Part shown: one piece after another, positions 4,854 through 33,394 of the stretch
How the letters are laid out: the number at the start of each line of letters is the position of its first letter
How positions within the stretch are numbered: the stretch's first letter is position 1
IMG/VR virus record: IMGVR_UViG_3300043772_002320
Span: 1 to 37,896 of that record
DNA from: a virus
DNA: 37,896 bases
Strand: one strand, 5' to 3'
Translations under genes and position numbers: made by a program
The notes under the pieces: generated by a model
The model's database searches: none
What the model was told of the DNA's origin: nothing
Seen by the model: the letters and a program-made list of their open reading frames with translations, nothing else

Positions 4854-5079
4854 TGGCGGTCGTTCCTTTGGCTTTCTCCCATGCCCGGATGGCCGCGAAC
4901 GGAGCCGCTGCGGCGATGCAGGCGGCGAGGCCGGTAAGGTCGGGATAGGTGCGGGTGATGAGGGGGAGCGCGATGCCGTTGACGATCAGGCTTCCGCCGA
5001 TGCCGACCTGAACCGCCGGCCGCCACCACTTGCGGACGAAGCAGAGCGCCACGCCCTGCGTCTTAAGGACCCAGCTCAC
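4846..5079 (-). CDS. Small membrane protein, putative holin (77 aa)
   Basis: GTG 5079 overlaps the stop of the 5076 gene (GTGA) and gives a 77-residue protein; the longer frame runs inside that gene and is rejected. After a basic stretch (RKWWRP) come two hydrophobic segments (VGIGGSLIVNGIALPLI and LTGLAACIAAAAPFAAI) and a basic tail (RAWEKAKG). This resembles the short 3TM holins of alphaproteobacterial phages and gene transfer agents. Holin is inferred mainly from size, topology and position just before the endolysin. Confidence 0.6.
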   Translation of the reverse strand: MSWVLKTQGVALCFVRKWWRPAVQVGIGGSLIVNGIALPLITRTYPDLTGLAACIAAAAPFAAIRAWEKAKGTTAND

Positions 5080-5450
5080 TTGAGCAGCAGGGCCAGCCGG
5101 TCGCCGGTCAGCCACCACAGGGCCGGGCCGATGATGGCGAAGGCCACGCCCGCGCCGGTCAGCATCTTCACCCACCCGTCGAACTTTCCGAACCGATGCG
5201 CGACGTCATGCTCCAGCCGCATCAAGCGCCCGACGATGCCAGTGCCTACGGGCTGGCCGTATTCGTCCTGGCTTTCCGAGCCGATGGCCTTGGTGAGGCC
5301 GGTCAGCATTTCCTCAATCTTCGCCGTCGCCTGCCAAGCCTGTTCGGCCTTGGACGCGGACTGCTCGATAAGCTGATAAATCTCGTCGTGGGTCTTGCCC
5401 TCGGGCTGGTTGACAGCGCGAGTGCGCCGACGCGGCGGGGTTTCCGGCAT
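5076..5450 (-). CDS. Membrane protein with N-terminal coiled coil, lysis cassette (124 aa)
   Basis: A 124-residue protein. The soluble N-terminal part is helical and charged (EIYQLIEQSASKAEQAWQA..., RLMRLEHDVAHRFGKFD). A single transmembrane helix near the C-terminus (LTGAGVAFAIIGPALWWL) ends in a short basic/hydrophobic tail. This layout resembles haemolysin-XhlA-like or antiholin-like accessory proteins that sit beside holins. It is the first lysis gene on this strand. Its role in lysis is inferred from position only. Confidence 0.65.
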   Translation of the reverse strand: MPETPPRRRTRAVNQPEGKTHDEIYQLIEQSASKAEQAWQATAKIEEMLTGLTKAIGSESQDEYGQPVGTGIVGRLMRLEHDVAHRFGKFDGWVKMLTGAGVAFAIIGPALWWLTGDRLALLLK

Positions 5451-5476
5451 GGCGGGGTCCGTGGTAGGGTGGAGGG

Positions 5477-5674
5477 ATGGAAAAAGACGTTCCGCCGATC
5501 CTCGACGTTCACGCCGATGTCGTGCATGACCCGTCCGCCCAGCCCGCAGGCTCAGCGGATCAGTTCACCGAGATCCTGACCAACCTGGTTGGCAAGGGGA
5601 TCATGATTGCCATTCTGGTCGTGGCCGGCCTGGTCTGGAATTGGCTCTACAACCTCTGGTTCAAGATTTTCTAG
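5477..5674 (+). CDS. Small single-pass membrane protein on the opposite strand (65 aa)
   Basis: A 65-residue protein with an acidic N-terminal half and one strong C-terminal transmembrane segment (GIMIAILVVAGLVWNWLYNLWF). It is the only + strand gene inside the 22-kb - strand late block: divergent from the 5076 gene (26 bases between starts) and tail-to-tail with the ejection-protein gene, the stops overlapping by four bases. No - strand gene covers this interval, which supports it being real. The spacing of its GGAGG to ATG is tight. It may be an antiholin or regulator; unproven. Confidence 0.5.
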   Translation: MEKDVPPILDVHADVVHDPSAQPAGSADQFTEILTNLVGKGIMIAILVVAGLVWNWLYNLWFKIF

Positions 5675-7797
5675 AACCGGATTGTTGAGGCCAGCGGGAC
5701 AGCGGCGCGAGCCGCCTGCGACTGACGAATGGCGTTTTGTGCGCGGGTGGCCTGCAGCACGTTCAGGAGCCTCGTGATCTCGTCCGGGTTTATGGCCGTC
5801 TGACCGAGGATCGCGTTGGCTTCCTCGTCGTTCAGGACGCCCGTGCGCTTGGGGATGACCTTGGACAGACCGCGCGCCAGCCGACCGGGGACGCTCTGCG
5901 GGGACGAAAGTGCGTTGACGGCCTCGTCGACACCGGCCTCAATCGGGTCCTGCGGGTCGCTAAGGTCCTTCATCGCGGCGGTCTTGGGCGCCGTGCGCGA
6001 TTGGGCGGTGATGGCGTTGTTTCGCTCGGCCGCCTTCACCCGCGTGGCGGCGGACTTCACAAAGGCCGCGAAGCTGGCGTCGTCCGGGAAAGCCAAGGCG
6101 ATTTTCTCGCCAAGGTTCTGGTCCTCGGTGAGCCGGCGCATGACCGAGATGTCACCCTTTGCGCTCTTGACCTGCTTAAACAGCGCCTCGGCCACGCCCT
6201 TGCGGTAGTGAAGCATGGCCGCCGGGTCCATGGCCGCCAGTTCCTGCTGCACCTCCTCGGGCCAGACGCTGTTGTTGAGGACGTTCTTGCCCATTTCCAG
6301 AGCCGACTTGTTGTCGGCGTCGAGGCCGTATTGCTTCAGCCAGGCGTCGTAGTCGGCGAAGCCGCCGCGGTTGGGATCGCGGGCGTTGTCGCGGATGGCC
6401 CGGCCAAGGTCTTTCAGGGCAACGCCGGTGTCTCCGTCCCCGTTGCGGAACGCCCGATCCGCCCCCTTCAGCAGCTTCTCGGAAATGTTCTGCGCATCGC
6501 GGACCCGCAGGGTGACGCCCGAGGGCTTGTCCAGCACCTGATCCAGAACGCGCATGAGGTCGCCGGCCTGGTTGCGAATGGCCGGGTCTGTGTTGGCCCT
6601 CATGTTTTCGGCGGCGTCCTGAAGGGCGCTGCGGGCGCGGTCGGATCGCAGGGCGAGGATGGAGTTTTCGTCCAGAGTGACTAGATGCTCGCCCAGCTTC
6701 TCCATGCCGGAGCGCGCGTTGTCGCGCTGGGTGGTGATGAGGTTGTTCTGGTAGGAGAAGAAGTCACCCTTGGCCCCGAGGGCGCTTTGCACGTCCTGCG
6801 CCACGGCCTTGGCCGTTTGCGCCCTGTTGGCGTCCACCGCCCGACGCACCGCCGTCTGAGCGGCCCCAGGAGACGCTGCGGCGGCCTCGTAGACGCCGAA
6901 CAGGTTGTCCCCGCCTTGGTAGAGCGGGTTCTGGCCCGGCTTGAACTGGACCCCGGCGCGCACGTCCCGCTGAATGGCGCGATCAAGCGCACGGGCGACC
7001 TTCACTTCTGCGGGATTGGCGCGGGGTGGAGGTGGGGGCAGTCCGGTCCTCTCTGCTGCGCTGACGCCCATGGCGTTGACGCCCGCCGTCACGGCGTTCC
7101 GAATGTTCTCCGGAACCCGGTTCGCTACGGCCTGCACCATTGGCTGCACAGCCCCGGACACTGCCCTGAACGCGGGCGGCACTGCGGCGCCCACGCCGAA
7201 GCCAAAGGCTGCGCCGGGAAGAATGCCCTCGACGCCCTGGTCTCCGGCGCCGGCAAGACCCCCCGCCGCCGAGCCGGCCGTACCGGCCCGCAGCATCTGC
7301 GCGCCCATTCCGGCTCCGGGCTTGGCGATTGCCAGCGGCCCAAGAACCTTGTTCACCGGGGAAGCGATTGCGCCGACCACGGTTCCCGTTCCGGAGGCTA
7401 CCGGGTTGCTTCGTGCATAGCCTTGGCTGGCCTCGCGCTCCGCTTGAAGGACAGCCGCCTTCGCCTGCTGCGGGGTGTAGGACTTCTTGCCGAACAGGGC
7501 GCCGCCAAGGGCGTTGTTCACGGCGGTTTCAGCCATAGCGAGGTTGGCGTCGAGGTCGTCCGCGAAGTTGAAGCCGGCGCCTTGGCTAATGGAGCGGATG
7601 ATGCCCGGCGTAGAGGTGGCGCGGCGGCGAGCGTCGGCGAGGGCTTCCTGCTGCGGGTTTGCGGCTTTGGCCGGCTTTCCGCCAGCGTCGGGAAACTGCC
7701 GCAGGACCTCGGCTCGGATTTGCGCATCCGTTGCCCCCGCCGGGCCTTGGATGGTGTAGGTCCGGCCGTCCGGGGCCTTGATCGAGTAGGTGGGCAA
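5671..7797 (-). CDS. Large virion protein, probable DNA-ejection (internal) protein (708 aa)
   Basis: A 708-residue protein. The N-terminal ~40 residues (YSIKAPDGRTYTIQGPAGATDAQIRAEVLRQFPD) form a small domain common at the front of phage virion proteins. A Gly/Ala-rich amphipathic middle with membrane-like stretches follows (GTAGSAAGGLAGAGDQG, GAAFGFGVGAAVPPAF), then a long helical C-terminal region. This matches internal or ejection proteins of short-tailed phages that form a channel through the envelope. It is the largest gene here and lies between tail genes and lysis genes, as such proteins usually do. Confidence 0.7.
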   Translation of the reverse strand: MPTYSIKAPDGRTYTIQGPAGATDAQIRAEVLRQFPDAGGKPAKAANPQQEALADARRRATSTPGIIRSISQGAGFNFADDLDANLAMAETAVNNALGGALFGKKSYTPQQAKAAVLQAEREASQGYARSNPVASGTGTVVGAIASPVNKVLGPLAIAKPGAGMGAQMLRAGTAGSAAGGLAGAGDQGVEGILPGAAFGFGVGAAVPPAFRAVSGAVQPMVQAVANRVPENIRNAVTAGVNAMGVSAAERTGLPPPPPRANPAEVKVARALDRAIQRDVRAGVQFKPGQNPLYQGGDNLFGVYEAAAASPGAAQTAVRRAVDANRAQTAKAVAQDVQSALGAKGDFFSYQNNLITTQRDNARSGMEKLGEHLVTLDENSILALRSDRARSALQDAAENMRANTDPAIRNQAGDLMRVLDQVLDKPSGVTLRVRDAQNISEKLLKGADRAFRNGDGDTGVALKDLGRAIRDNARDPNRGGFADYDAWLKQYGLDADNKSALEMGKNVLNNSVWPEEVQQELAAMDPAAMLHYRKGVAEALFKQVKSAKGDISVMRRLTEDQNLGEKIALAFPDDASFAAFVKSAATRVKAAERNNAITAQSRTAPKTAAMKDLSDPQDPIEAGVDEAVNALSSPQSVPGRLARGLSKVIPKRTGVLNDEEANAILGQTAINPDEITRLLNVLQATRAQNAIRQSQAARAAVPLASTIRF

Positions 7798-7809
7798 TGG
7801 CCCCTCCTG

Positions 7810-8694
7810 TCAGTCGGTGCGGGTAGCCTTGCCCCAGCCACTGTTGGCGCGGGGCGGCGGAGGGACGGGCGGGGGCTTCTTCTGGCCGCCGCCGGAATAG
7901 CTGGACCACCACTGGTTGAACGCCGCGTCGGCCCCGTCAAGGTTCCCGCGCCGCTGATACCAGCGGTCGTTCCACGCCAGCTTGGCGTCCTTCCGGGACT
8001 TCTCCGGATCGTCGGAAGGCGTCCAGATAATCGCGTTCCCCGCATCGCCGCTGACGTTCTTCCGGGTCGCGCCGTCCGGGCTGCGGTAGAAGGCTCCGCG
8101 CGGGGCGGCGTCCCGGCTCTGGCCAGATGTCATGTCAAGGGGATTGGTCGGCGTCAGGCCCGGGGTCCGTTGAGCCATGATCTCGCGCACCACCCCGAGA
8201 TTTTCGCGCAGGTCTTCGGGCTGCATCCCCACATAGAGCGAGCCCAAGGCGCTTTCGAGCCGCCGCCCTTCGGCGTCGGACGCTGCGCCCAAGCCCGACG
8301 CGCCCGTGGGGGATTGCGCCTTGAGGGTCTCCATCTCGGTCCGGAAGACGTTGGACCTGAGCGGAAGGAGCTTGCGGTCGAGGGTGTATCCCGGCGTTCC
8401 GGGGCGACCATCCGGCGAGCGCCAGAGCGACATGATGCCGGGCGGCTTGATCTCGCCCGCGTCCATGGCGGCCCAATAGCCCGTCGCCTTTTCGGGGTTG
8501 GCGTCGAGGAAACTGCGGGCGGCGTCCACCTGACCCAGCCGCATCTGTGCGACCTTGAGTTGGTCGCCGGCGCGGGCCTTGCGCGCGACATATTCCTCGG
8601 TGGCGACGAAGTTCTTGCCGTCCCACACGCCGAGGTTTCCCCCGCCAAGGTCGTACTCGGCTCCGACAACGTAACGCTGCTGCGCTCGGGTCAT
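7810..8694 (-). CDS. Virion-associated hypothetical protein (294 aa)
   Basis: An unrecognised 294-residue protein in the ejection/tail block. It begins with a TRAQQRYVVGAEYDLGGGNLGVWDGKNFV β-like segment and has a charged helical middle (YVARKARAGDQLKVAQMRLG...). It ends in a proline-rich linker (PPPVPPPPR) after a W-rich portion (AWNDRWYQRR, NQWWSSYSGGG). There are no catalytic motifs. By neighbourhood it is probably an internal virion or tail component delivered with the DNA. Confidence 0.6.
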   Translation of the reverse strand: MTRAQQRYVVGAEYDLGGGNLGVWDGKNFVATEEYVARKARAGDQLKVAQMRLGQVDAARSFLDANPEKATGYWAAMDAGEIKPPGIMSLWRSPDGRPGTPGYTLDRKLLPLRSNVFRTEMETLKAQSPTGASGLGAASDAEGRRLESALGSLYVGMQPEDLRENLGVVREIMAQRTPGLTPTNPLDMTSGQSRDAAPRGAFYRSPDGATRKNVSGDAGNAIIWTPSDDPEKSRKDAKLAWNDRWYQRRGNLDGADAAFNQWWSSYSGGGQKKPPPVPPPPRANSGWGKATRTD

Positions 8695-8706
8695 GATATG
8701 TGCCTC

Positions 8707-9381
8707 CTAGAACCTGCGACCTGTGGCAACCGGGCCTGCCGGGGCCTCGCCCCCACCCCCACCAGACGCCGGCGGCCGGTTGGCGCGGATCATGCTGGCC
8801 TGCCCAGCGGCCCGCCGCTGTTCGGCCAGCGCGCCTTGAGCGTCGATCTGCCGTTCGGCCAGCGCCTCGGCGTAGGGGTCGGAGTAGAGTTCCTGCGTTT
8901 CGCCGGTCTGCGGGTTGATGCCCACGACGCCAGAGCGGGTGTTGAATAGGGACATGTTGGGCGCCGGGGGAGCCATGCGATCCGCCAGGGCGAAGGGCGC
9001 ATCGACGTTCCCACCCGCGCTGATGAACGACATAAGCGCCTCTCGCGTCCTCGGGTCCTGCAAGTCGAGGCCGGACGGACGAGGCGTCTGCCGCTGCATG
9101 GGGGCCATGCCGAACCGGGCGCCCGTCTCGTTCGCCGCGCCGATGAGCTGGTTGACCTGCGGGGTGTAGGTGTCCGGGGGCTGGATTTGGCCGATGAGGT
9201 CGTTGAAGGACGACAACATGGTCTGTTGCCGGGCGTCCTTTTCCTGACGCGCCTTGCGGCTTTGCACAAAACCGTAGGGGTCGCCGGGAACGAAGATGGA
9301 CAGGGTGGACAGCAGCGCCTGTCCGGCATCGCTATTGAGGAAGTTGCGGGCCGATTTGCCGGCCTTTCCAAGCATGGGCAT
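8707..9381 (-). CDS. Virion-associated hypothetical protein (224 aa)
   Basis: An unrecognised 224-residue protein. It has an amphipathic N-terminus (KSARNFLNSDAGQALLSTLSIFVPG), a central helical stretch rich in Gln and Arg, a likely flexible middle (RMAPPAPN), and a Gly/Pro-rich end (PPASGGGGGEAPAGP). It is encoded between two other Ala-rich virion proteins and is likely part of the same internal or ejection set. No function beyond that can be read. Confidence 0.6.
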   Translation of the reverse strand: MPMLGKAGKSARNFLNSDAGQALLSTLSIFVPGDPYGFVQSRKARQEKDARQQTMLSSFNDLIGQIQPPDTYTPQVNQLIGAANETGARFGMAPMQRQTPRPSGLDLQDPRTREALMSFISAGGNVDAPFALADRMAPPAPNMSLFNTRSGVVGINPQTGETQELYSDPYAEALAERQIDAQGALAEQRRAAGQASMIRANRPPASGGGGGEAPAGPVATGRRF

Positions 9382-21342: not shown

Positions 21343-23274
21343 TCAGCCGTCCGTGTAGAGGCCGGCGGGCAGTCTGGTTTCGCGGGTCGTCGCGCTGATC
21401 CTCTTGGTCTCAGCTTCGTAGGCCGCGATGTCGAGTTTCCGGGCCTCAAGGCTCTTGTCAGCCTCAAGCGCCTGGTACCTGGCCTGCATCTCACGCAGGG
21501 CCGTGGCGTATTGCTGGACCGCCTGTTGAGCCTGAGCGTCCGGGGCCTGCCCTTCCGCCTCGCTCATGACCCGGCCGGCCATCGCCTTTTCCATCCGCTC
21601 GGCAATCTCGTCAGCGCCCGGCCAGTCCAGGTTCTTGACGAGGAGGTCACCAATGACCGGCGCCGCATCCGGGTAGGCGCGGATGAGCTCGATCATCTGG
21701 TTCGCCGCTTCCTGGCGCAGGCTGGCGAAGGACGGGCCCGCCGACACCGTCAGGTCGTAGCGGCCGGCGGTCAGGTCGTAGATCCGCGTGATCTCCCGAA
21801 CCTCGTCGGTCAGCGGATCGGCCTCCTCGACCTGCACCGGCTGATTGACGGCCTTCATCTCGCTTTCGCCGTCTTCGCCCAGGACGCGGATGACGCGGGG
21901 GACGGAGTAGACCTGCGGAATGAGGTCGATCAGCACCCGGCCCGCATGGCGAATGGCCCGCGACAGGTTGTCGATGAAGTGGAACGTCGCGTTGTCCGCC
22001 TCCATCTGCCGGGCGATGATGGCCTTGCCGCTCGTCTCGTTCGACCGCGCGCCGAGGCTGGCGTCAAACATCCCGATGACCGACTTGATGTCATCCGAAG
22101 CGTTCAGGGCCTCTTGCAGGGCACCCGCCGGCACACCGGAGAACGGCTGGCGCTGGGGAGCCTCGGGGCCGTCGAACTCAATGAACGCATGGCTCTGGAC
22201 GTTCGCCGTCGCCCACTTGGCCGCGTCGGTCTCGAACGCACCCTTGCGCCCGATGAACGGAGCCTTGGGGGCCAAGGCCACCAGTTCGGTCGAGGTGGTG
22301 CGCCAGTAGTTGAACATCCGCTGGGCGTCCTTCGCCCCGCGGATCAGGCTGCGGAAGTGCCGCTTGCCCTTGAAGTTCACCTCGGCGCCGTAGACCGGAA
22401 TGATCGGGATGTACTTCCCCGCCCAATCCACCGTCTCCAGCACTTCCGCGCCGCTCATCACGTACTGACGCACCCGGTGACTGTCGACGTCCCGCGAGCC
22501 CTGCACCTGAACGCCAATCACATCGAAGGCGGGCTTGTTGGCCTTGTAGTCCGCCTCCTCGACCACCATGCCGTCAGACAGGAGGAGGATGGTCCGCTTG
22601 ACCTTTTCACGGAGCCAGTATTCCGCCACCTGAACGAACTCGCCGTCACGCCACGGCGCACCGACACCGCTCCAGGCCTCGCCTTCCCAATCCACCTCTT
22701 CCGCGCCGGGATAGGCCTTCTTGAAGGCCGCCTTGGTCATGCTGTCGGTGACGAAGCAGTAGTTCCAGTCAGAGCTGTCCGCCGCAGTGGAATAGCAGTC
22801 AGGATAGACCGCCAGAGGGTTCGGGACCCGCTCGATCACCACGTCCTGGTCGAAGGTGTCGTCGGAGGTGTAGCGCGTGTTGATGCGGAAGTAGCCGAAG
22901 CCGCCGAACACCGCGTGTTCGAGGGCCGTGTCGTAAGCCACCTCGGCATTCGACGACTGCTCGATGTTGCGGATCAGGCCGTTGAGGACTTCCGCTGTCT
23001 CGGGGTCCGCCTCGCTGTCCACCGGCATGATGCGGATGCCGGGCTTGTTGCGGCGGGCGTCGTTGACGACCTGGCGGCCCATGCTGACGAGTTTGTTCAC
23101 CGTCAGGCAGGGCCGGCCTTCAAGCTCCCGATCCCGGCGCACCCGCTCGGGCCATTGGTTCTCCATCAGGGCGAAGTCGACGTCGTCTTCCCACGCCTTG
23201 CGGTTGTGGGCGTCGTGCTCGGCAGTCTTCTCAAACCCTTCGAGGGCTTCTTTCAGCAGGTCGGCCTTGTTCAC
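21343..23274 (-). CDS. Portal protein, P22-like (643 aa)
   Basis: A 643-residue protein with the conserved features of P22-type portals: an N-terminal helix, ENQWPERVRRDRELEGRPCLTVNKL, the VNDARRNKPGIRIMPVD segment, an ERVPNPLAVYPD strand, and a long Gln/Ala-rich C-terminal helix (barrel-like end). Twelve copies form the DNA entry and exit channel. Its ATG overlaps the large terminase stop (ATGA), consistent with coupled expression. Confidence 0.9.
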   Translation of the reverse strand: MNKADLLKEALEGFEKTAEHDAHNRKAWEDDVDFALMENQWPERVRRDRELEGRPCLTVNKLVSMGRQVVNDARRNKPGIRIMPVDSEADPETAEVLNGLIRNIEQSSNAEVAYDTALEHAVFGGFGYFRINTRYTSDDTFDQDVVIERVPNPLAVYPDCYSTAADSSDWNYCFVTDSMTKAAFKKAYPGAEEVDWEGEAWSGVGAPWRDGEFVQVAEYWLREKVKRTILLLSDGMVVEEADYKANKPAFDVIGVQVQGSRDVDSHRVRQYVMSGAEVLETVDWAGKYIPIIPVYGAEVNFKGKRHFRSLIRGAKDAQRMFNYWRTTSTELVALAPKAPFIGRKGAFETDAAKWATANVQSHAFIEFDGPEAPQRQPFSGVPAGALQEALNASDDIKSVIGMFDASLGARSNETSGKAIIARQMEADNATFHFIDNLSRAIRHAGRVLIDLIPQVYSVPRVIRVLGEDGESEMKAVNQPVQVEEADPLTDEVREITRIYDLTAGRYDLTVSAGPSFASLRQEAANQMIELIRAYPDAAPVIGDLLVKNLDWPGADEIAERMEKAMAGRVMSEAEGQAPDAQAQQAVQQYATALREMQARYQALEADKSLEARKLDIAAYEAETKRISATTRETRLPAGLYTDG

Positions 23275-24554
23275 GACATCCAGCCTCCCTGCACAACCGT
23301 TCGCGTTGTCTTGCGCTCCGGCTTCGGAGCTTCATAGGCCACGCACATCAGCCCGAAGGCGTCCGCCGCATGGCTTGACCAGTCGTGTTCCGGCCCGAGG
23401 CCAATGCCCCGCGCCTCGTCCCGCCTCTCGTGGTAGTGGCCGAGCGCATCCAAGCCGCCGGCGCACCGCGTGGCGTCGAACCAGATGGACGGGAACAATC
23501 GCCGCGCCGCCTCGACCCGAGCCGATGCCGCACCGCGTCCTTGGTTCGGAACCACCTCGACCGAGAACCCGGCTTCCCGAAGCGCGCTTTCGTAAGACAC
23601 CGCGAACACCTTGTCCCCCTGCGCCCCGTCGTGAGGCAGGACGCACAGGGCCTGGTCGTATCCCCTGCCCCGCAGCCAGCCCACGTGAGCGGCAAGCGGC
23701 TGGCCTTGGGCCTCGTAGTAGTCCAGCACCCGGACTTCCCGTCCGATGAACTGCGCCACCCAGATCGAGCAGGCGTCAGCCTTGGCCCCGGTTCCGCCAA
23801 TGTCCCAGAACGCCCGGTAGGTCATGAGCGGATCGGCCGCCACATGGCCCACGCGACCCTCAGAGCGGGCTTTCGTCAGAGGCTCGGCGAAATAGGCGCC
23901 CTCTGTCACTTGCTTAAAACCGCCTTCCCAGATGTGATCATACTGGTCGGGCCGCTCCGTCATGTCCCGCAGGCGCTTGCGGTTGAGGATCTCGGGGAAC
24001 CACGGATTATCCCGCCAGTTCATCTCGACGACTTTCATCGCCGGGTCCTGGCTCATCCGAAACCGCTTGTGGGTCGGGCTGTTCTTGCTCTCCGGGTTCC
24101 ACGTCACCCAGAGTTCAGAGTCATGCTCCCGAAGCGTCGGGTCCAGTTTTGTCCAGGCCTCGTCCGTGACGGGCTCGGCTTCATCCACCCAAGCCAGACG
24201 GATACGGCTTTTCGACTTCACAGAGTCGATGTTCCGGTCGAGGCCGGAGAAAGCGTAATCAATCAGCCCGCAGGCAGTCCGAATATACTTCTCGCCAATG
24301 TCAAAGTGCGGGGCCAACCAGGGCTCCTCGCGGATGGCGTGCTTGACCTCCTCCATCGAGGAGTCCGACAGCGAGTTCATGAACTGCCGGCCGCAAAGGA
24401 TGATGCCGCTCTCACCCGCCCTAGCCCACTTGTGGGCCTTGACCGCGGTCATCTTGGCAAAGGTCCGCGACTTGGCGGAACCCCGTCCACCGTATGCGCC
24501 TCGCGTATCCGCCTTGCCTGTGAAGACCGGAACCAGCTTGGCCGGGATCTTCAT
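23271..24554 (-). CDS. terL: Terminase large subunit
   Basis: A 427-residue DNA-packaging motor/nuclease of the PBSX-like type. The Walker A variant GGRGSAKSR is at residues 22-30, Walker B AWVDEAE at 121-127, and the coupling motif VTWNPES at ~150. The RNase-H-like nuclease starts at FWDIGG (Asp251), with later acidic residues. Its length is normal for the family. It starts 8 bases after the small-subunit gene and overlaps the portal. Confidence 0.93.
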   Translation of the reverse strand: MKIPAKLVPVFTGKADTRGAYGGRGSAKSRTFAKMTAVKAHKWARAGESGIILCGRQFMNSLSDSSMEEVKHAIREEPWLAPHFDIGEKYIRTACGLIDYAFSGLDRNIDSVKSKSRIRLAWVDEAEPVTDEAWTKLDPTLREHDSELWVTWNPESKNSPTHKRFRMSQDPAMKVVEMNWRDNPWFPEILNRKRLRDMTERPDQYDHIWEGGFKQVTEGAYFAEPLTKARSEGRVGHVAADPLMTYRAFWDIGGTGAKADACSIWVAQFIGREVRVLDYYEAQGQPLAAHVGWLRGRGYDQALCVLPHDGAQGDKVFAVSYESALREAGFSVEVVPNQGRGAASARVEAARRLFPSIWFDATRCAGGLDALGHYHERRDEARGIGLGPEHDWSSHAADAFGLMCVAYEAPKPERKTTRTVVQGGWMS

Positions 24555-24561
24555 TTGAACG

Positions 24562-24852
24562 CTAGTCAGGGCTGACGCCTATCAGTTCAATGACCGTGAA
24601 GTCGGACTTGACCTGGGCTTCAACGTCGAGCGCCTGCCGAGGCTTTCCGAACCCACGGTCCAGAATGGAGTTAGCAGCCGCGACCCTTGCCGCTTCGCTT
24701 TCCCCGGCCTTCATGATCTGGGCAAGCGTGGCCAAGGCGTCGTCGGTGTAGGCCTGAGCCGCGGCGCGAATGTCCGCCGTTACCTTGTTGACGGAGCCCT
24801 TCGGACGGCCCCTCTGACGATTATCCGGCATTTTTTTATTCGCCTCACTCAC
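24562..24852 (-). CDS. Probable terminase small subunit (96 aa)
   Basis: A 96-residue basic, helical protein (RGRPKGSVNKVTADIRAAAQAYTDDALATLAQIM..., RVAAANSILDRGFGKPRQAL). The RGRPKGSxNKxT opening and NxILDRGxGKP motif recur in small proteins directly before phage large terminases, hence the call. GTG 24852 has AGGAGG 12 bases upstream; ATG 24831 is an alternative start. It is the first late gene downstream of the IS insertion. Confidence 0.75.
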   Translation of the reverse strand: MSEANKKMPDNRQRGRPKGSVNKVTADIRAAAQAYTDDALATLAQIMKAGESEAARVAAANSILDRGFGKPRQALDVEAQVKSDFTVIELIGVSPD

Positions 24853-24955: not shown

Positions 24956-24963
24956 TGTGAGGG
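24956..24963. repeat. 8-bp target site duplication, left
   Basis: TGTGAGGG directly before the left inverted repeat of the IS, identical to 27328-27335. IS1595-family elements are known to make 8-bp duplications. Confidence 0.92.
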
Positions 24964-24988
24964 GGGAATTATATACGTGACAAAGCAG
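24964..24988 (+). repeat. IS terminal inverted repeat, left
   Basis: 25 bp, matching the reverse complement of 27303-27327 except at positions 4 (A/G) and 13 (C/T). A GTGACA hexamer inside it, 17 bases before TAGGGT (25000-25005), could act as a weak promoter for the transposase; this is speculative. Confidence 0.92.
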
Positions 24989-25030
24989 CGTTGATTTTGT
25001 AGGGTTTCCTTACTGCCAAGGAACGCCCCG

Positions 25031-25966
25031 ATGAACCTGACCGCTCCAATCTTCCAAGACGCCGACAAGGCCCGCGAGCATCTGGAAAAGACCCGCTGGC
25101 CGCACGGACCTGTGTGCCCGCATTGCGGCGTCATCGACCAAGCAACGAGCCTCAAGGGTACGCATCACCGTCCCGGCCTCTACCAGTGCAACGCCTGCCG
25201 CGAGCAGTTCACCGTGACCGTGGGCACCGTGTTCGAGCGCTCCAAGGTCCCGCTGAACAAGTGGCTTTTGGCCACCTACCTCATGTCGTCCAGCAAGAAG
25301 GGCGTCTCAGCCCACCAGCTGCACCGCACGCTCGGCGTCACCTACAAGACCGCCTGGTTCATGTGCCATCGGATCCGCGAAGCCATGACCGACAACGGCG
25401 CCCCGATGGGTGGCGACGGTAAGATCGTCGAAGCCGACGAAACCTACGTCGGCGGGAAGGAAACCAACAAGCACGTGTCCAAGCGCAAGCCGGGCCAGAT
25501 CGGCGGCGTCGGCAAGCAAGTCGTTTTCGCCTTGGTCGAACGCGGCGGACGCGCCCGCTCGTTCCACGTCGCCAATGTCACCGGCAAGACGCTGGCCCCG
25601 ATCCTACGCACTCAGGTGCGCCGCGAGACCGCGCTCATGACCGATGAGGCGGGCCAGTACCGCAACGTCGGAACCGAGTTCGCCAGCCATGGGAAGGTCA
25701 ACCACGGAAAGGACGAGTATGTCCGCGGTCACATTCACTCGAACACCGTGGAAGGCTTTTTCGCCATCCTGAAGCGCGGCGTGACCGGAACGTTCCACCA
25801 CGTCTCCGAAGCCCACCTCGCCCGCTATCTCGCCGAGTTCGACTTCCGGTATTCCCACCGCTCGGCGCTCGGCATCAACGACACCATGCGCACGGACGAG
25901 TTGTTGCGCGGCATCGCGGGCAAGCGCCTGACCTATCGGCGGACTGGTGAAGCCGCGTACGCGTAA
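25031..25966 (+). CDS. IS1595-family transposase (311 aa)
   Basis: A 311-residue DDE transposase. An N-terminal zinc ribbon has two CxxC pairs (CPHC 29-32, CNAC 53-56). A helical DNA-binding part follows (GVSAHQLHRTLGVTYKTAWFMCHRIREAM). The ISXO2-like catalytic core has EADETYVGG (Asp136), MTDEAGQY (Asp205) and HIHSNTVEGFFAILKRG (Asn238/Glu241), as in the IS1595 family. AAGGAA precedes the ATG. Complete with no visible damage, so probably active. Confidence 0.93.
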   Translation: MNLTAPIFQDADKAREHLEKTRWPHGPVCPHCGVIDQATSLKGTHHRPGLYQCNACREQFTVTVGTVFERSKVPLNKWLLATYLMSSSKKGVSAHQLHRTLGVTYKTAWFMCHRIREAMTDNGAPMGGDGKIVEADETYVGGKETNKHVSKRKPGQIGGVGKQVVFALVERGGRARSFHVANVTGKTLAPILRTQVRRETALMTDEAGQYRNVGTEFASHGKVNHGKDEYVRGHIHSNTVEGFFAILKRGVTGTFHHVSEAHLARYLAEFDFRYSHRSALGINDTMRTDELLRGIAGKRLTYRRTGEAAYA

Positions 25967-26189
25967 GCAGAAGGTGCGACGCCTCCTTGCTCTCCACAAG
26001 AAAATTCAAATATTTGGCTTAACCGTCTTGGCGCCGTTCAGCGAATCGGTCGCCATTACTGATCGAGCCCGGCGGCGTTTGCACCGCCAGCCGGTCTCTT
26101 TCCGTGAAACCGCCGGGAAGGGCGATCTCTTACTGCACTTTCGGATAGAATCCGAGACTCACAAGATCGTCAACCCGGCATCCGCATAA
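25947..26189 (+). CDS. Possible small IS passenger ORF (80 aa)
   Basis: An 80-codon frame starting with GTG inside the transposase 3' end and stopping 12 bases before the GIY-YIG gene. The N-terminus is basic (KPRTRKQKVRRLLALHKKIQIFGL). It resembles no family I know. The interval also contains an inverted pair CCGGCGG/CCGCCGG, so it may instead be untranslated spacer. Listed because it otherwise leaves a 235-base gap within the IS. Confidence 0.25.
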   Translation: MKPRTRKQKVRRLLALHKKIQIFGLTVLAPFSESVAITDRARRRLHRQPVSFRETAGKGDLLLHFRIESETHKIVNPASA

Positions 26190-26201
26190 GGATGCGTTTA
26201 T

Positions 26202-26564
26202 ATGTTCAGATATGAACTAGTTCGTGCCGTTGGTGCGAGCGGTGCCACCTACGAGTTCCAAATGTACCCGCTTGGCACCCGCTTTAAGGAACTCCCCGGG
26301 CTTTACGTTTTTGGGCGCCCAGTTCCCAATGGCCAGTGGGAGGTCCTTTACGTCGGGCAGACGCACAACCTGCAATCTCGTGTTGGAACGGGTCTCAGCA
26401 CTCATCACAAGATCCTTGATGCTCGAAATCTAGGCGCTACCCATATTGGGGTGAGTATCTTTATTGGCCGCGAATACGACAGGCTACAGGCAGAAAGCGA
26501 CCTGATCGCCTCGGTCAACCCAAGGCTGAATACCGCGCTTCCTCCCAAGCGGCGCTGGATCTAG
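26202..26564 (+). CDS. GIY-YIG nuclease-domain protein, IS passenger (120 aa)
   Basis: A 120-residue protein that is little more than one GIY-YIG domain. GLYVF (33-37) stands for GIY and LYVGQT (49-54) for YIG. An Arg follows at 60, with the catalytic Glu at 98 (QAESDLI) and Asn in NPRLN (106-110). Such domains cut DNA in homing enzymes, restriction enzymes and repair nucleases. AAGGA lies upstream of the ATG. Base composition is distinctly lower in GC than the phage. Its stop overlaps the stop of a possible - strand ORF. Confidence 0.82.
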   Translation: MFRYELVRAVGASGATYEFQMYPLGTRFKELPGLYVFGRPVPNGQWEVLYVGQTHNLQSRVGTGLSTHHKILDARNLGATHIGVSIFIGREYDRLQAESDLIASVNPRLNTALPPKRRWI

Positions 26565-26713
26565 GGTTGTTTCGGCGCGGGCTCCAATCCGCGCCGACTT
26601 CCTTCATGCGGCTTGTGCGGCGTGTTCACCAGGCGCTCAAGAGTCTCCTGAAAGCGCTGTTCTGCTTCCTTCTCCGAGGAGTCCCGGTCTTTGTCCGCGC
26701 TGGAAACCGACAA
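26561..26713 (-). CDS. Possible small passenger protein ending in a VNTPHKPH motif (50 aa)
   Basis: On the - strand, TTG 26713 with GGAGGG just upstream gives a 50-residue protein containing EAEQRFQETLERLVNTPHKPHE and a basic, proline-rich tail. The ERFxxTLxxxxxTPxKPH pattern is familiar from very small alphaproteobacterial proteins of unknown function, which makes this frame more believable than a random shadow. It is convergent with the GIY-YIG gene (overlapping stops) and its 5' end overlaps the divergent 26691 gene. A longer in-frame GTG start exists at 26782. Confidence 0.42.
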   Translation of the reverse strand: MSVSSADKDRDSSEKEAEQRFQETLERLVNTPHKPHEGSRRGLEPAPKQP

Positions 26714-27215
26714 CGGTCCCTCCGATAGGTTTCTACAAGCTGTTGGCGGGCTCACGCTCTCATGGGGCACAATTGAAACCACTTTGGATTTCTGTCACGC
26801 AATCATTACTCATCATTTTGATGGGCGAGAGATCGAACCGGAAATCCAGCGTTCCCTAGAGCGGAAGCTGAAGTTCATCAAACGGGGTTTGAGCCACCCC
26901 AGGTTGAAGAGCGTCCAGAAACGGGGCGTGAAGCTGGTGGACGCTCTGCTAGTTGAGCGATTAGACCGTCACCGTATCGTTCACGGAGGACTTGGGCCAC
27001 GCGGAACCCCTGATAATGTGGAGTTCATAAGGGTGGAGTACACCCCGAAATTCCACAATACATCAACGGTATACGTCACAACTGAAGACGCATTACAGGT
27101 GGCGAAAACCGCAAGCAAACGGGCGGATCAAGTTGCCGCCTTATCGATTGCATTGTGGGGCATCGCACAGCCGCACGACCCCATTCACTACCCGGCGAGC
27201 AAAGTCGCTTGGTAG
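26691..27215 (+). CDS. IS passenger protein with HEPN-like R-x4-H motif (174 aa)
   Basis: A 174-residue mostly helical protein starting at TTG, with GAGGAG about ten bases upstream. Helical blocks (AVGGLTLSWGTIETTLDFCHAII, RSLERKLKFIKRGL) lead to DALLVERLDRHRIVHGG. There R93 and H98 form R-x4-H followed by Gly, the arrangement seen in HEPN-type RNases and some non-catalytic HEPN proteins. A β stretch and a final helix follow. HEPN is my inference from one motif plus helical content. Low GC and location inside the IS mark it as foreign cargo. Confidence 0.68.
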   Translation: MSALETDNGPSDRFLQAVGGLTLSWGTIETTLDFCHAIITHHFDGREIEPEIQRSLERKLKFIKRGLSHPRLKSVQKRGVKLVDALLVERLDRHRIVHGGLGPRGTPDNVEFIRVEYTPKFHNTSTVYVTTEDALQVAKTASKRADQVAALSIALWGIAQPHDPIHYPASKVAW

Positions 27216-27302
27216 CTCGTCGCTAGCTTCCCACTCCCACAGCTCTTTTCGAACCCAATCAACGCACGCCTGGAACGCGCCCGAATCAATCCCGGCTTCC
27301 AT

Positions 27303-27327
27303 CTGCTTTGTCACATATATAATCCCC
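27303..27327 (-). repeat. IS terminal inverted repeat, right
   Basis: 25 bp, the inverted partner of 24964-24988 (23 of 25 identical). It ends at CCCC and is followed at once by the target duplication. Confidence 0.92.
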
Positions 27328-27335
27328 TGTGAGGG
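27328..27335. repeat. 8-bp target site duplication, right
   Basis: TGTGAGGG, identical to 24956-24963. Confidence 0.92.
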
Positions 27336-27617: not shown

Positions 27618-27622
27618 TCAAG
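27586..27622 (-). promoter_or_regulatory. Candidate promoter for the terminase/late genes
   Basis: On the - strand CTTGACA overlaps the stop codon of the 27618 gene, an exact -35 hexamer. The -10 position ~17 bases on (CACGTT) is poor, so this is a weak candidate. If real, the IS now lies between it and the terminase genes. Confidence 0.25.
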
Positions 27623-27950
27623 CGGTCGGTTTGGCCTCGCGGGCGATGGTCTCGGGGTCTAGGCGGCGGATGGGGCTATTCGGGTCGGGCCAATCGTGGT
27701 CGGCAACCTCCGCCGCAGCCTCCAGCCCTAGTTCAATGCCCCGTTTCAGGGCGGCGTCGATCAGGGGCTGGTTGAGGATGCGGTAGCTAATGATGTCATT
27801 ATTTGCTTTTTCCGGCCTGTGCTTCCAATTGCGAAAGCGGGCCGGGCCAACCTGTTTGCAGGGACTCTCCATCCGCCGGTATAAAACCTCAACTTCGACA
27901 TCACCCGCGACCGGCTGCGGTCCGCCGTCGTGTTCGATCCAGTCAGTCAT
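27618..27950 (-). CDS. Paralogue family member D (WIEHDGGPQPV protein, 110 aa)
   Basis: A 110-residue protein starting at ATG 27950, which overlaps the previous stop by eight bases. It has two parts. The N-terminal domain DWIEHDGGPQPVAGDVEVEV...SYRIL resembles the small phage WIxWxGGxxPV domain found in repeated accessory genes. The C-terminal helix is NQPLIDAALKRGIELGLEAAAEV, then LDPETIAREA. It is the last of four tandem relatives on this strand and the most diverged. Function unknown. Confidence 0.75.
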   Translation of the reverse strand: MTDWIEHDGGPQPVAGDVEVEVLYRRMESPCKQVGPARFRNWKHRPEKANNDIISYRILNQPLIDAALKRGIELGLEAAAEVADHDWPDPNSPIRRLDPETIAREAKPTA

Positions 27951-28242
27951 GTTGCGCCTCCTTGGCGATGGTCTTGGGGTTGAGGGCCTGAAGGATGTCG
28001 TCGGCCTGCGGTTCATAAAGCGGCTCAATGGCTCGCTTTGCAGCCTCCAGCCCTAGGCGGATGCCTTCGCGGCGGGCGGCGTCGATCAGGTGCTGGTTGA
28101 GGATGCGGTAGCGGAGCTTGTAGTCCCAGGCAATCCATCTGGCTAAATCACGATCATCTGCCTGATAAAGCTGGCTGACCTCCACCCAAACGTCATCTGC
28201 GACCGGCTGGGGTCCGCCGTTGTGTTCGATCCAGTCAGTCAT
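27943..28242 (-). CDS. Paralogue family member C (99 aa)
   Basis: A 99-residue relative of D and B: DWIEHNGGPQPVADDVWVEV, a W-rich middle (ARWIAWDYKLRYRIL), then NQHLIDAARREGIRLGLEAAKRAIE and ALNPKTIAKEA. Its start lies in the fifth copy of the junction repeat (28239-28254), so it takes its ribosome binding site from the ETAR tail of member B. Unknown function; probably an early accessory protein. Confidence 0.78.
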   Translation of the reverse strand: MTDWIEHNGGPQPVADDVWVEVSQLYQADDRDLARWIAWDYKLRYRILNQHLIDAARREGIRLGLEAAKRAIEPLYEPQADDILQALNPKTIAKEAQHD

Positions 28243-28254
28243 CGTGCAGTCTCC
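28239..28254 (-). repeat. Gene-junction repeat, copy 5 (opposite strand)
   Basis: On the - strand this reads GGAGACTGCACGATGA, joining members B and C. With the preceding bases it is identical over 24 bases to + strand 790-813, although the genes it joins there are unrelated. Confidence 0.85.
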
Positions 28255-28571
28255 TTGGCGATGGCTTCGGAGTTGAGGGTGCAGATAGCTATGCTGGCTT
28301 CTTCGAGGGCCATTTCCTCTTCAATATGAAGATCGCCGGTGCTGACAAGCGCTTCAATGGCCTTGTTCGCAGCCTCCAGCCCTAGCCGGATGCCTTCAAT
28401 ACGGGCGGCGTCGATCAGGTGCTGGTTGAGGATGCGGTAGGAGGTTGACTTGCTCCAGTTCCATGAAGGCATAAAGCCTGCAAGCCCAAAGCCTCCATCA
28501 AGCCTGCCCACCCAAACGTCATCCGCGACCGGCTGGGGTCCGCCGTCGTGCTTGATCCAGTCATTGCTCAT
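28239..28571 (-). CDS. Paralogue family member B (110 aa)
   Basis: A 110-residue relative: NDWIKHDGGPQPVADDVWVGRL, SYRILNQHLIDAARIEGIRLGLEAANKAIEAL, then an acidic insert (EEEMALEEASIAI) and LNSEAIAKETAR. ATG 28571 is preferred over a TTG at 28574. It overlaps the upstream gene by 11 bases. The ETAR end is the same junction sequence as in the + operon near 0.8-1.6 kb. Confidence 0.78.
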   Translation of the reverse strand: MSNDWIKHDGGPQPVADDVWVGRLDGGFGLAGFMPSWNWSKSTSYRILNQHLIDAARIEGIRLGLEAANKAIEALVSTGDLHIEEEMALEEASIAICTLNSEAIAKETAR

Positions 28572-28923
28572 CAAAAATCCCCCTCAGCGCATTGAAGTGA
28601 TCGGCGAGAATAGCGAGTTGCTTATCAAGCCGCCTGACCTCCGCCATTATGGCCGGGACCTCCGCCAGCTTGGTGTCGCGCTCACACTGGAGGCGAGCAT
28701 GATGCTGCACCAGTACGTCCCACGCGGCCTTGGCCGCCTCTTGCGGCGTTGATGTCGTTTCGCGGGCTGTGGGTCGCCACCACTTGATCTGGTCCGTCGC
28801 TCTCCAGTCCCACCAGGAGGCCAGGCCCGTAGCAAACGGCTTGCCGATGCCGAACGAGACATCAACAATCGCCGAGGCGTCCACAGGGCGCTCACCGCCG
28901 CTCCATTCGATCCAGTCAGTCAT
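28561..28923 (-). CDS. Paralogue family member A (WIEWSGGERPV protein, 120 aa)
   Basis: A 120-residue protein sharing only the N-terminal domain with B-D: DWIEWSGGERPVDASAIVDVSFGIG...SWWDWRATDQIKWWRPT, the fullest version of this W-rich fold. The C-terminal part is different: a long charged helix (DVLVQHHARLQCERDTKLAEVPAIMAEVRRLDKQLAILADHF), likely a coiled coil. So the family is modular. Function unknown. Confidence 0.75.
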   Translation of the reverse strand: MTDWIEWSGGERPVDASAIVDVSFGIGKPFATGLASWWDWRATDQIKWWRPTARETTSTPQEAAKAAWDVLVQHHARLQCERDTKLAEVPAIMAEVRRLDKQLAILADHFNALRGIFDEQ

Positions 28924-32229: not shown

Positions 32230-32396
32230 GCGCGCCCCCGCAGGCATCCGTGGACGAACTCCCGACGTTCAGCCTCGATGTGGCGGACGGCCTGGTGCCG
32301 TCCGCGAGCAGCGGCGATCCGGCGGTCGAACTCGGCCAGCTTGGCGTCAAAGGCCGAGGGCTGGCGGCGCAGGCGAGACAGGAGGGAACGGATCAT
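32226..32396 (-). CDS. Small RHIEAERR-motif protein (56 aa)
   Basis: A 56-residue gene: ATG 32396 overlaps the methyltransferase stop, and TGA overlaps the next ATG at 32229. A basic N-terminus (IRSLLSRLRRQP) is followed by AEFDRRIAAARGRHQAVRHIEAERREFVHGCL. The same EFDRRxxxARxxHxxxRHIEAERRxFxHxxL pattern closes the gene on the other side of the methyltransferase (33391-33738), so the two are paralogues. Function unknown. Confidence 0.7.
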   Translation of the reverse strand: MIRSLLSRLRRQPSAFDAKLAEFDRRIAAARGRHQAVRHIEAERREFVHGCLRGRA

Positions 32397-33394
32397 GCTG
32401 CACACTCGACGCGGCCAAACAGCGCCCCGTCTTCCGCAATCCTGGCGGCCGCCATCTCGGCATAGGCCGGGTTCAGCTCGCAGAGGATGGCGTCTCGACC
32501 GTGGCGGTCGGCCACCAGTCCGGTCGTGCCTGACCCACCGAAGGGGTCCAGCACAACGCCCCCTCGCGGGCTCCCGGCCAGGATGCAGGGCTCTATGAGG
32601 TCGGGCGGGAATGTGGCGAAGTGGGCGCCTTTAAAGGGCTTGGTCGCCACGGTCCAGACGCTGCGGCGGTTGCGGGTGTCCCGGATCGCTCTAAAGGCTT
32701 CCCGCCCCGGCACCGCATTTGTCTTGCCATTGAACTCGCCGCGGACTTTAGACTGGCGAGGGCCCGCGCTAGACCGCCCCATCTGATGGGCACCGGTCTT
32801 GCCGGTATGGAACTCCGAACCGCGCGCGCCATAAATGGCGTCTTCCTGCATCGCCTCGTTGTCGAAGTAGTAGCGAGGCCCCTTCGACAGCAGGAAGATA
32901 TACTCATGCGCCTTGGTGCAGCGGTCCTTCACGCTCTCCGGCATGGGGTTGGGCTTGTGCCAGATGATGTCCTGCCGCAGCGTCCAGCCGTCCGCCTGTA
33001 GGGCGAAAGCGACGCGCCACGGGATGCCGATAAGCTGTTTGTCCGCCAGCCCGGTTTGCGCGGTGCAAGACGCTCTGCCGTTTCCCGTGTCGTAAATGTA
33101 AGCCTGCTTTCCCGAATCTCCGGGTTTGTGTTGGCCCTTAGCAGGGTTGCGGGCATAACTGTCGCCCAAGTTCAGCCAGAGGGTGCCGTCATCCCGCAGG
33201 ACGCGGCGGACCTCGCGGAACACCGCGACCAGTTTGGCGACGAACTCGTCAGGCGTGGCCTCCAGCCCAATCTGTCCGTCATGCCCGTAATCGCGCAGGC
33301 CGAAATAAGGCGGCGAGGTGACGCAGGTGTTGACGCTTTCACTCGGAAGGGAGCGTAGGGTCTGGAGGCAGTCACCGACACGAAGCGAGATCAC
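32393..33394 (-). CDS. Orphan DNA methyltransferase, beta class (N6-A or N4-C)
   Basis: A 333-residue enzyme starting at GTG 33394. Catalytic motif IV, TSPPYFGLRDYG (26-30 for TSPPY), comes first. The AdoMet-binding motif I, DPFGGSGTTG (283-292), is near the C-terminus; this order defines the beta class. The TSPPY form is seen in both N4-cytosine and N6-adenine enzymes. No restriction partner lies nearby, so it probably protects phage DNA or affects gene control. It is flanked by the two RHIEAERR paralogues. Confidence 0.9.
   Translation of the reverse strand: MISLRVGDCLQTLRSLPSESVNTCVTSPPYFGLRDYGHDGQIGLEATPDEFVAKLVAVFREVRRVLRDDGTLWLNLGDSYARNPAKGQHKPGDSGKQAYIYDTGNGRASCTAQTGLADKQLIGIPWRVAFALQADGWTLRQDIIWHKPNPMPESVKDRCTKAHEYIFLLSKGPRYYFDNEAMQEDAIYGARGSEFHTGKTGAHQMGRSSAGPRQSKVRGEFNGKTNAVPGREAFRAIRDTRNRRSVWTVATKPFKGAHFATFPPDLIEPCILAGSPRGGVVLDPFGGSGTTGLVADRHGRDAILCELNPAYAEMAAARIAEDGALFGRVECAA

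Follow-up and report, generated by a model that had tools for sequence, protein, structure and literature searches.

The window analysed here, a 37,896-base virus record from IMG/VR, raises the question of how an insertion sequence with passenger genes came to lie in a phage genome and what these genes may do. Positions 24964-27327 are confirmed as an intact IS1595-family element of about 2.4 kb. Its left (24964-24988, GGGAATTATATACGTGACAAAGCAG) and right (27303-27327) terminal inverted repeats are identical at 23 of 25 positions, as the initial annotation had described, and the same ends are found in relatives; in 100 shuffles of the region the best inverted 25-mer reached 20 matches, with a mean of 17.2. 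The element is flanked by an exact 8-bp target duplication, TGTGAGGG, at 24956-24963 on the left and 27328-27335 on the right, which is the length expected for the IS1595 family. Read inwards, the right inverted repeat of this element and its relatives gives TTGACA in many copies; read outwards, it gives TATATAAT. A promoter scan of the element gave nothing exceeding chance.

The empty site that had been proposed as a check, one TGTGAGGG joining the two flanks, was found in four near-identical IMG/VR phage contigs (L098, L099, L100 and L101), where the joined sequence reads ...gccgaaggTGTGAGGGccgggcc... The large terminase of these sister phages is 100% identical in protein sequence to that of the window phage, and their left flanks are 94-99.8% identical to the window; the alignments stop exactly at 24963 and restart at 27328, the overlap being the 8-bp target. 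Since both flanks match the empty sites directly, the element went in cleanly, and did so after the window phage had separated from its sister phages, which supports the earlier view of a recent, intact, passenger-carrying IS1595-family insertion. As the element was found in a single metagenomic contig, an assembly chimera of a host insertion sequence and a phage contig had to be considered, but given the exact duplication and the four independent empty-site contigs breaking exactly at the element ends this explanation is extremely improbable, and it was rejected. An exact search of IMG/VR for the element ends found none, and a DNA search of deposited phages gave no match.

The element lies between genes, some 110 bp upstream of the gene of a probable small terminase subunit (24562-24852, minus strand), which precedes the large terminase gene and has a weak match to the PHROG small terminase (E 4e-4). 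The large subunit, TerL (23271-24554, minus strand; PF04466, E 2e-22), is 65% identical to those of Sulfitobacter and Rhizobium phages, and a P22-like portal is encoded nearby. The closest TerL sequences among deposited phages include those of Sulfitobacter phages pCB2047-A/C and NYA-2014a, Rhizobium phage RHph_Y1_10 and Paracoccus phage KLEP18-1, which are 60-65% identical and come from genomes of 39-43 kb. The window also encodes small phage proteins in a tandem array (27618-28923, minus strand, with another copy near 1094-1152); they are diverged paralogues that start with MTDWIEHxGGPQPVA, and their copy content differs among the four sister phages. A DNA methyltransferase of the host phage is encoded at 32393-33394 (minus strand; PHROG 67, E 3e-83).

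A second phage contig (IMGVR_UViG_3300037312_001002, L083/L165), with TerL 67% and portal 55% identical to those of the window phage, carries at 4930-7540 a member of the clade of the window element, in the same orientation and with a transposase of 71% identity. This copy, too, lies immediately upstream of the terminase genes, between the small terminase and antiterminator genes, and has its own duplication, CTTCGGCC, unlike that of the window. Judging by these sequences, the two elements are independent insertions in the same functional interval. The insertion site of L083 could be a hot spot at the early/late boundary.

The transposase (25031-25966, plus strand, 311 aa) combines a zinc ribbon (PF12760, E 2e-14, 53.7 bits against a cut-off of 25.4) with the DDE_Tnp_IS1595 domain (PF12762, E 6e-42) and matches the IS1595 transposase model NF033547 (E 9e-61), all above the cut-offs, so that the complete zinc-ribbon DDE transposase read from the sequence earlier is borne out. 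Of the seven IS1595 subgroups, all except IS1016 have an N-terminal zinc ribbon (PMC8101967). The enzyme is 84% identical to that of a copy in a Caulobacter sp. MAG (L002), and the closest transposases are those of Caulobacter and Brevundimonas MAGs. Among deposited phages, 4 of 50,697 records encode any related transposase, all with less than 35% identity, which fits the remark that insertion sequences are rare in phage genomes; yet 16 IMG/VR contigs carry closer relatives than the deposited records do. A partial transposase of this lineage was also seen in a MAG contig labelled Klebsiella pneumoniae (L080), which is possibly mis-binned.

The transposase scans returned 80 bacterial and 16 viral loci, and 60 elements, including that of the window, were delimited by their ends. 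They are mostly alphaproteobacterial, 1.9-4.2 kb long, and all have cargo length beyond the transposase; a duplication of 7-8 out of 8 bp flanks 42 of them, while in the other 18 no duplication was recognised, partly owing to off-register end calls. The elements follow a common plan: left end, transposase, slot A, a small protein in antisense, slot B with its start adjoining that of the small protein, and right end. Often there is also a short ORF that takes its start codon from within the right end. In the window this ORF (27141-27314, minus strand, MTKQ...) begins with a GTG inside the right inverted repeat and has homologues at the same place in three elements (L012, L017 and L094; CL11), and analogous right-end ORFs occur in 13 others (CL1). 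In several elements the right inverted repeat supplies the start (GTG/TTG ACA AAG CA, MTKQ) of a short ORF that points inwards and is conserved.

Relatives back four ORFs in the cargo region, at 26202-26564 (plus strand), about 26561-26710 (minus), 26691-27215 (plus) and 27141-27314 (minus). The initial annotation was therefore right about the presence of passengers but not about their number, given as three, since there are four candidates, and the small antisense protein among them is lineage-wide rather than free cargo. An ORF of 80 aa at 25947-26189 was rejected as a passenger, as it has no homologue in any relative.

The window element and its close relatives are alike in DNA sequence up to 25972-25987, a short way beyond the stop codon of the transposase gene (25966); past that point only scattered matches to the small-protein gene remain. 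No cargo protein is shared in any of 36 element pairs with 75-90% identical transposases, and sharing was found in 36 of 1,591 pairs with transposases less than 65% identical; the cargo shared among distant elements includes the GIY-YIG-like protein of the window, L014 and L019 and the slot B family of L002/L015. By these comparisons, elements swap cargo faster than their transposases diverge. The extra genes lie inside a single pair of ends and are wholly different among close relatives, as would be expected of the presumably dispensable passengers of a transporter IS.

The slot A gene of the window (26202-26564, plus strand) encodes a GIY-YIG nuclease-like protein of 120 aa, in which the catalytic residues Y35, Y50, R60, E98 and N110 are invariant among the three sequences compared (window, L014 and L019). 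The best seven PDB matches of its AF2 model are all GIY-YIG domains of UvrC (probability 0.96-0.99), and NCBIfam matches are to UvrC and related GIY-YIG-containing models, with a Pfam match under the cut-off. Based on the motif and on a model of pLDDT 70 with fold E-values of about 0.1, the protein is predicted to be a GIY-YIG endonuclease. Slot A of three other elements (L004 1413-1691, L008 6153-6425 and L032 6138-6503) holds a protein family (MALYLISYDLHK...), about 90-120 aa in length, which looks Cas2/VapD-like by eye; the L004 protein had no significant match in Pfam.

Slot B (26691-27215, plus strand) encodes a protein of 174 aa with the motif R93-HRIV-H98. In 20 slot B proteins, which are 14-28% identical to that of the window, no residue apart from the start and R93 is invariant, while H98 is found in 19 of them. 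In the structural model (pLDDT 87) the motif lies at the end of the third main helix (residues 70-97) and is followed by beta-hairpins. The protein thus has an Rx4-6H motif with a polar residue after the arginine at the end of helix 3, and an invariant Rx4H in which N or H follows the arginine, at this place, is the RNase signature of the HEPN superfamily (PMC3710099); beta-hairpins after the motif are also present in the HEPN protein Csx1. Over all elements, 29 of 39 slot B proteins have Rx4H, where 6.0 would be expected, and 24 have its strict form (0.95 expected), against 1 of 34 proteins with the motif in the slot A control; the remaining 10 slot B proteins are without it. One slot B protein (L075) exceeds the Pfam cut-off for MtlR, a family placed in the HEPN superfamily (PMC3710099).

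The window protein differs from known HEPN families in having no significant sequence, profile or fold match to them. Foldseek searches of PDB and BFVD gave no significant HEPN match, and neither did a PDB profile search or hhalign. Comparison with HepT, DUF4145 and HEPN profiles likewise gave no significant match, in a small-alignment test in which known HEPN families equally fail to match each other, and a search of IMG/VR for slot B relatives confirmed none. With the motif and its place in the model set against these results, the slot B protein is probably a HEPN RNase.

Between the two slots lies the small antisense protein (26561-26710, minus strand; core VNTPHKPH), the ORF of which is open to 26782, its start codon being uncertain. 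Homologues are present in 52 of 60 elements; they are 40-80 aa long, run opposite to the transposase and have the core (V/T)L(R/K/E)R(M/L)(L/V)xTPPKPHK, in summary VLRRMLxTPPKPHK. Identities of.47/.53/.35 at the three codon positions indicate conservation at the protein level on the minus strand. A model of the protein gave 21 matches in 19 of 199 Caulobacteraceae genomes; 15 have an IS1595 transposase no further than about 2.5 kb away, two lie at contig ends with a matching right end, one adjoins a transposase remnant and three are without sign of a nearby transposase. Thus, the small protein is mainly a component of the element lineage. It had no match in Pfam or PHROGs, a single-sequence search of plasmids found none, and it appears to be undescribed.

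The adjacent, divergent genes of slot B and the small protein, with abutting starts, might also be read as a toxin-antitoxin addiction module, the phage copy of which would stabilise the lysogen or exclude rivals, and HEPN proteins are indeed common toxins (PMC3710099). This is rather unlikely, as the small protein is kept beside the 10 of 39 slot B proteins without Rx4H and beside unrelated cargo, such as DUF1828 in L018. Moreover, classical toxin-antitoxin pairs are co-directional operons. Because it persists beside unrelated slot B genes, an element-specific accessory role of the small protein is favoured over that of an antitoxin to one particular toxin. The TPPKPHK protein may also serve as a marker for finding such elements and their cargo in alphaproteobacteria, including many unannotated candidate toxins.

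The cargo of other relatives includes SocA/Panacea (L028), DUF3800 (L030), PIN-like (L044) and GmrSD (L057) proteins, a PemK-like match and a single-chain restriction-modification enzyme (L089), and most of the rest has no recognised domain. The element of L089 (IMGVR_UViG_3300037312_000760, 4947-9193) is a 4.25-kb member of the lineage in a viral contig, and its enzyme, with HSDR_N, N6 methylase and specificity domains, is accompanied by an Rx4H protein. With so many cargo ORFs lacking a recognised domain, and with relatives rarely sharing cargo, another explanation could be that the cargo is neutral, being flanking DNA picked up accidentally on transposition without use to element or phage. 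However, 52 of 60 elements keep the fixed plan, one motif is 5- to 25-fold enriched in slot B but not in slot A, and the recognised domains are mostly those of nucleases, toxins, antitoxins and restriction enzymes, all of which makes neutral cargo unlikely.

The explanation preferred here, and considered probable, is that of a transporter IS of a mainly alphaproteobacterial lineage, with a fixed plan and slots swapping nuclease-, toxin- and defence-like genes, a host copy of which jumped into the phage. A single DDE transposase would act on the 25-bp ends and insert with an 8-bp stagger, as the structure and the empty site suggest. The nearest transposases, those of Caulobacter and Brevundimonas MAGs, point to a Caulobacterales host as the probable donor, and the transfer might have occurred while the phage was a prophage or during infection; the particular donor copy was not found. 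The place upstream of the packaging operon would be tolerated because no gene is cut. The slots may exchange small, mostly nuclease-, toxin- or defence-like genes, and in the window the putative HEPN RNase and GIY-YIG endonuclease might act on the host or on competing elements, with the small protein possibly regulating either transposition or the slot B gene divergent from it. The domain types suggest a benefit of the cargo to element, phage or host, and the phage may move the cargo between hosts. It is conceivable, though tentative, that these tiny transposons form a widespread lineage dedicated to shuttling toxin and defence genes, in which a transposase and its companion serve two swap sites, slot B being for HEPN RNases, and which loads phages as well as chromosomes; at least two related phages would have been loaded independently near the terminase genes. 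The recent insertion and the sister phages with the empty site make the loading of cargo from insertion sequence to phage directly testable.

IS1595 elements carrying passengers were named transporter IS (tIS) in 2009, with ISNha5, whose passengers are transcription regulators, as an example (Siguier et al. 2009, as cited in PMC11891212 and PMC8101967). Thus, by every feature tested, the window element belongs to a known kind. As far as these citing papers describe them, elements such as ISNha5 share with it the zinc-ribbon and DDE_Tnp_IS1595 transposase, the 8-bp duplication and passengers in a single IS-like unit, and they differ from the window element in its nuclease- and HEPN-like cargo, lineage-wide small antisense protein and two-slot plan. 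In the open-licence literature no description was found of the plan with small companion protein, two slots and HEPN-motif bias, which may be described in ISfinder or subscription papers, and no paper linking IS1595 with HEPN cargo was found there, two papers mentioning both terms. Defence and toxin genes are known to travel on large elements. If the proposed reading is true, a 2-4-kb unit with a single transposase and a built-in cargo bay of fast turnover would come close to the smallest vehicle for such genes. Tn7-like transposons similarly have cargo bays with interchangeable defence and toxin-like genes but are larger, multi-gene systems (PMC8649781), whereas the lineage of the window manages with 2-4 kb and one transposase. 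Transposase genes have also been noted in the genomes of phages VHML and Ma-LMM01 (cited in PMC2784084); in comparison with these cases, as they are cited there, the window element is intact, carries cargo and has its empty site preserved in sister phages.
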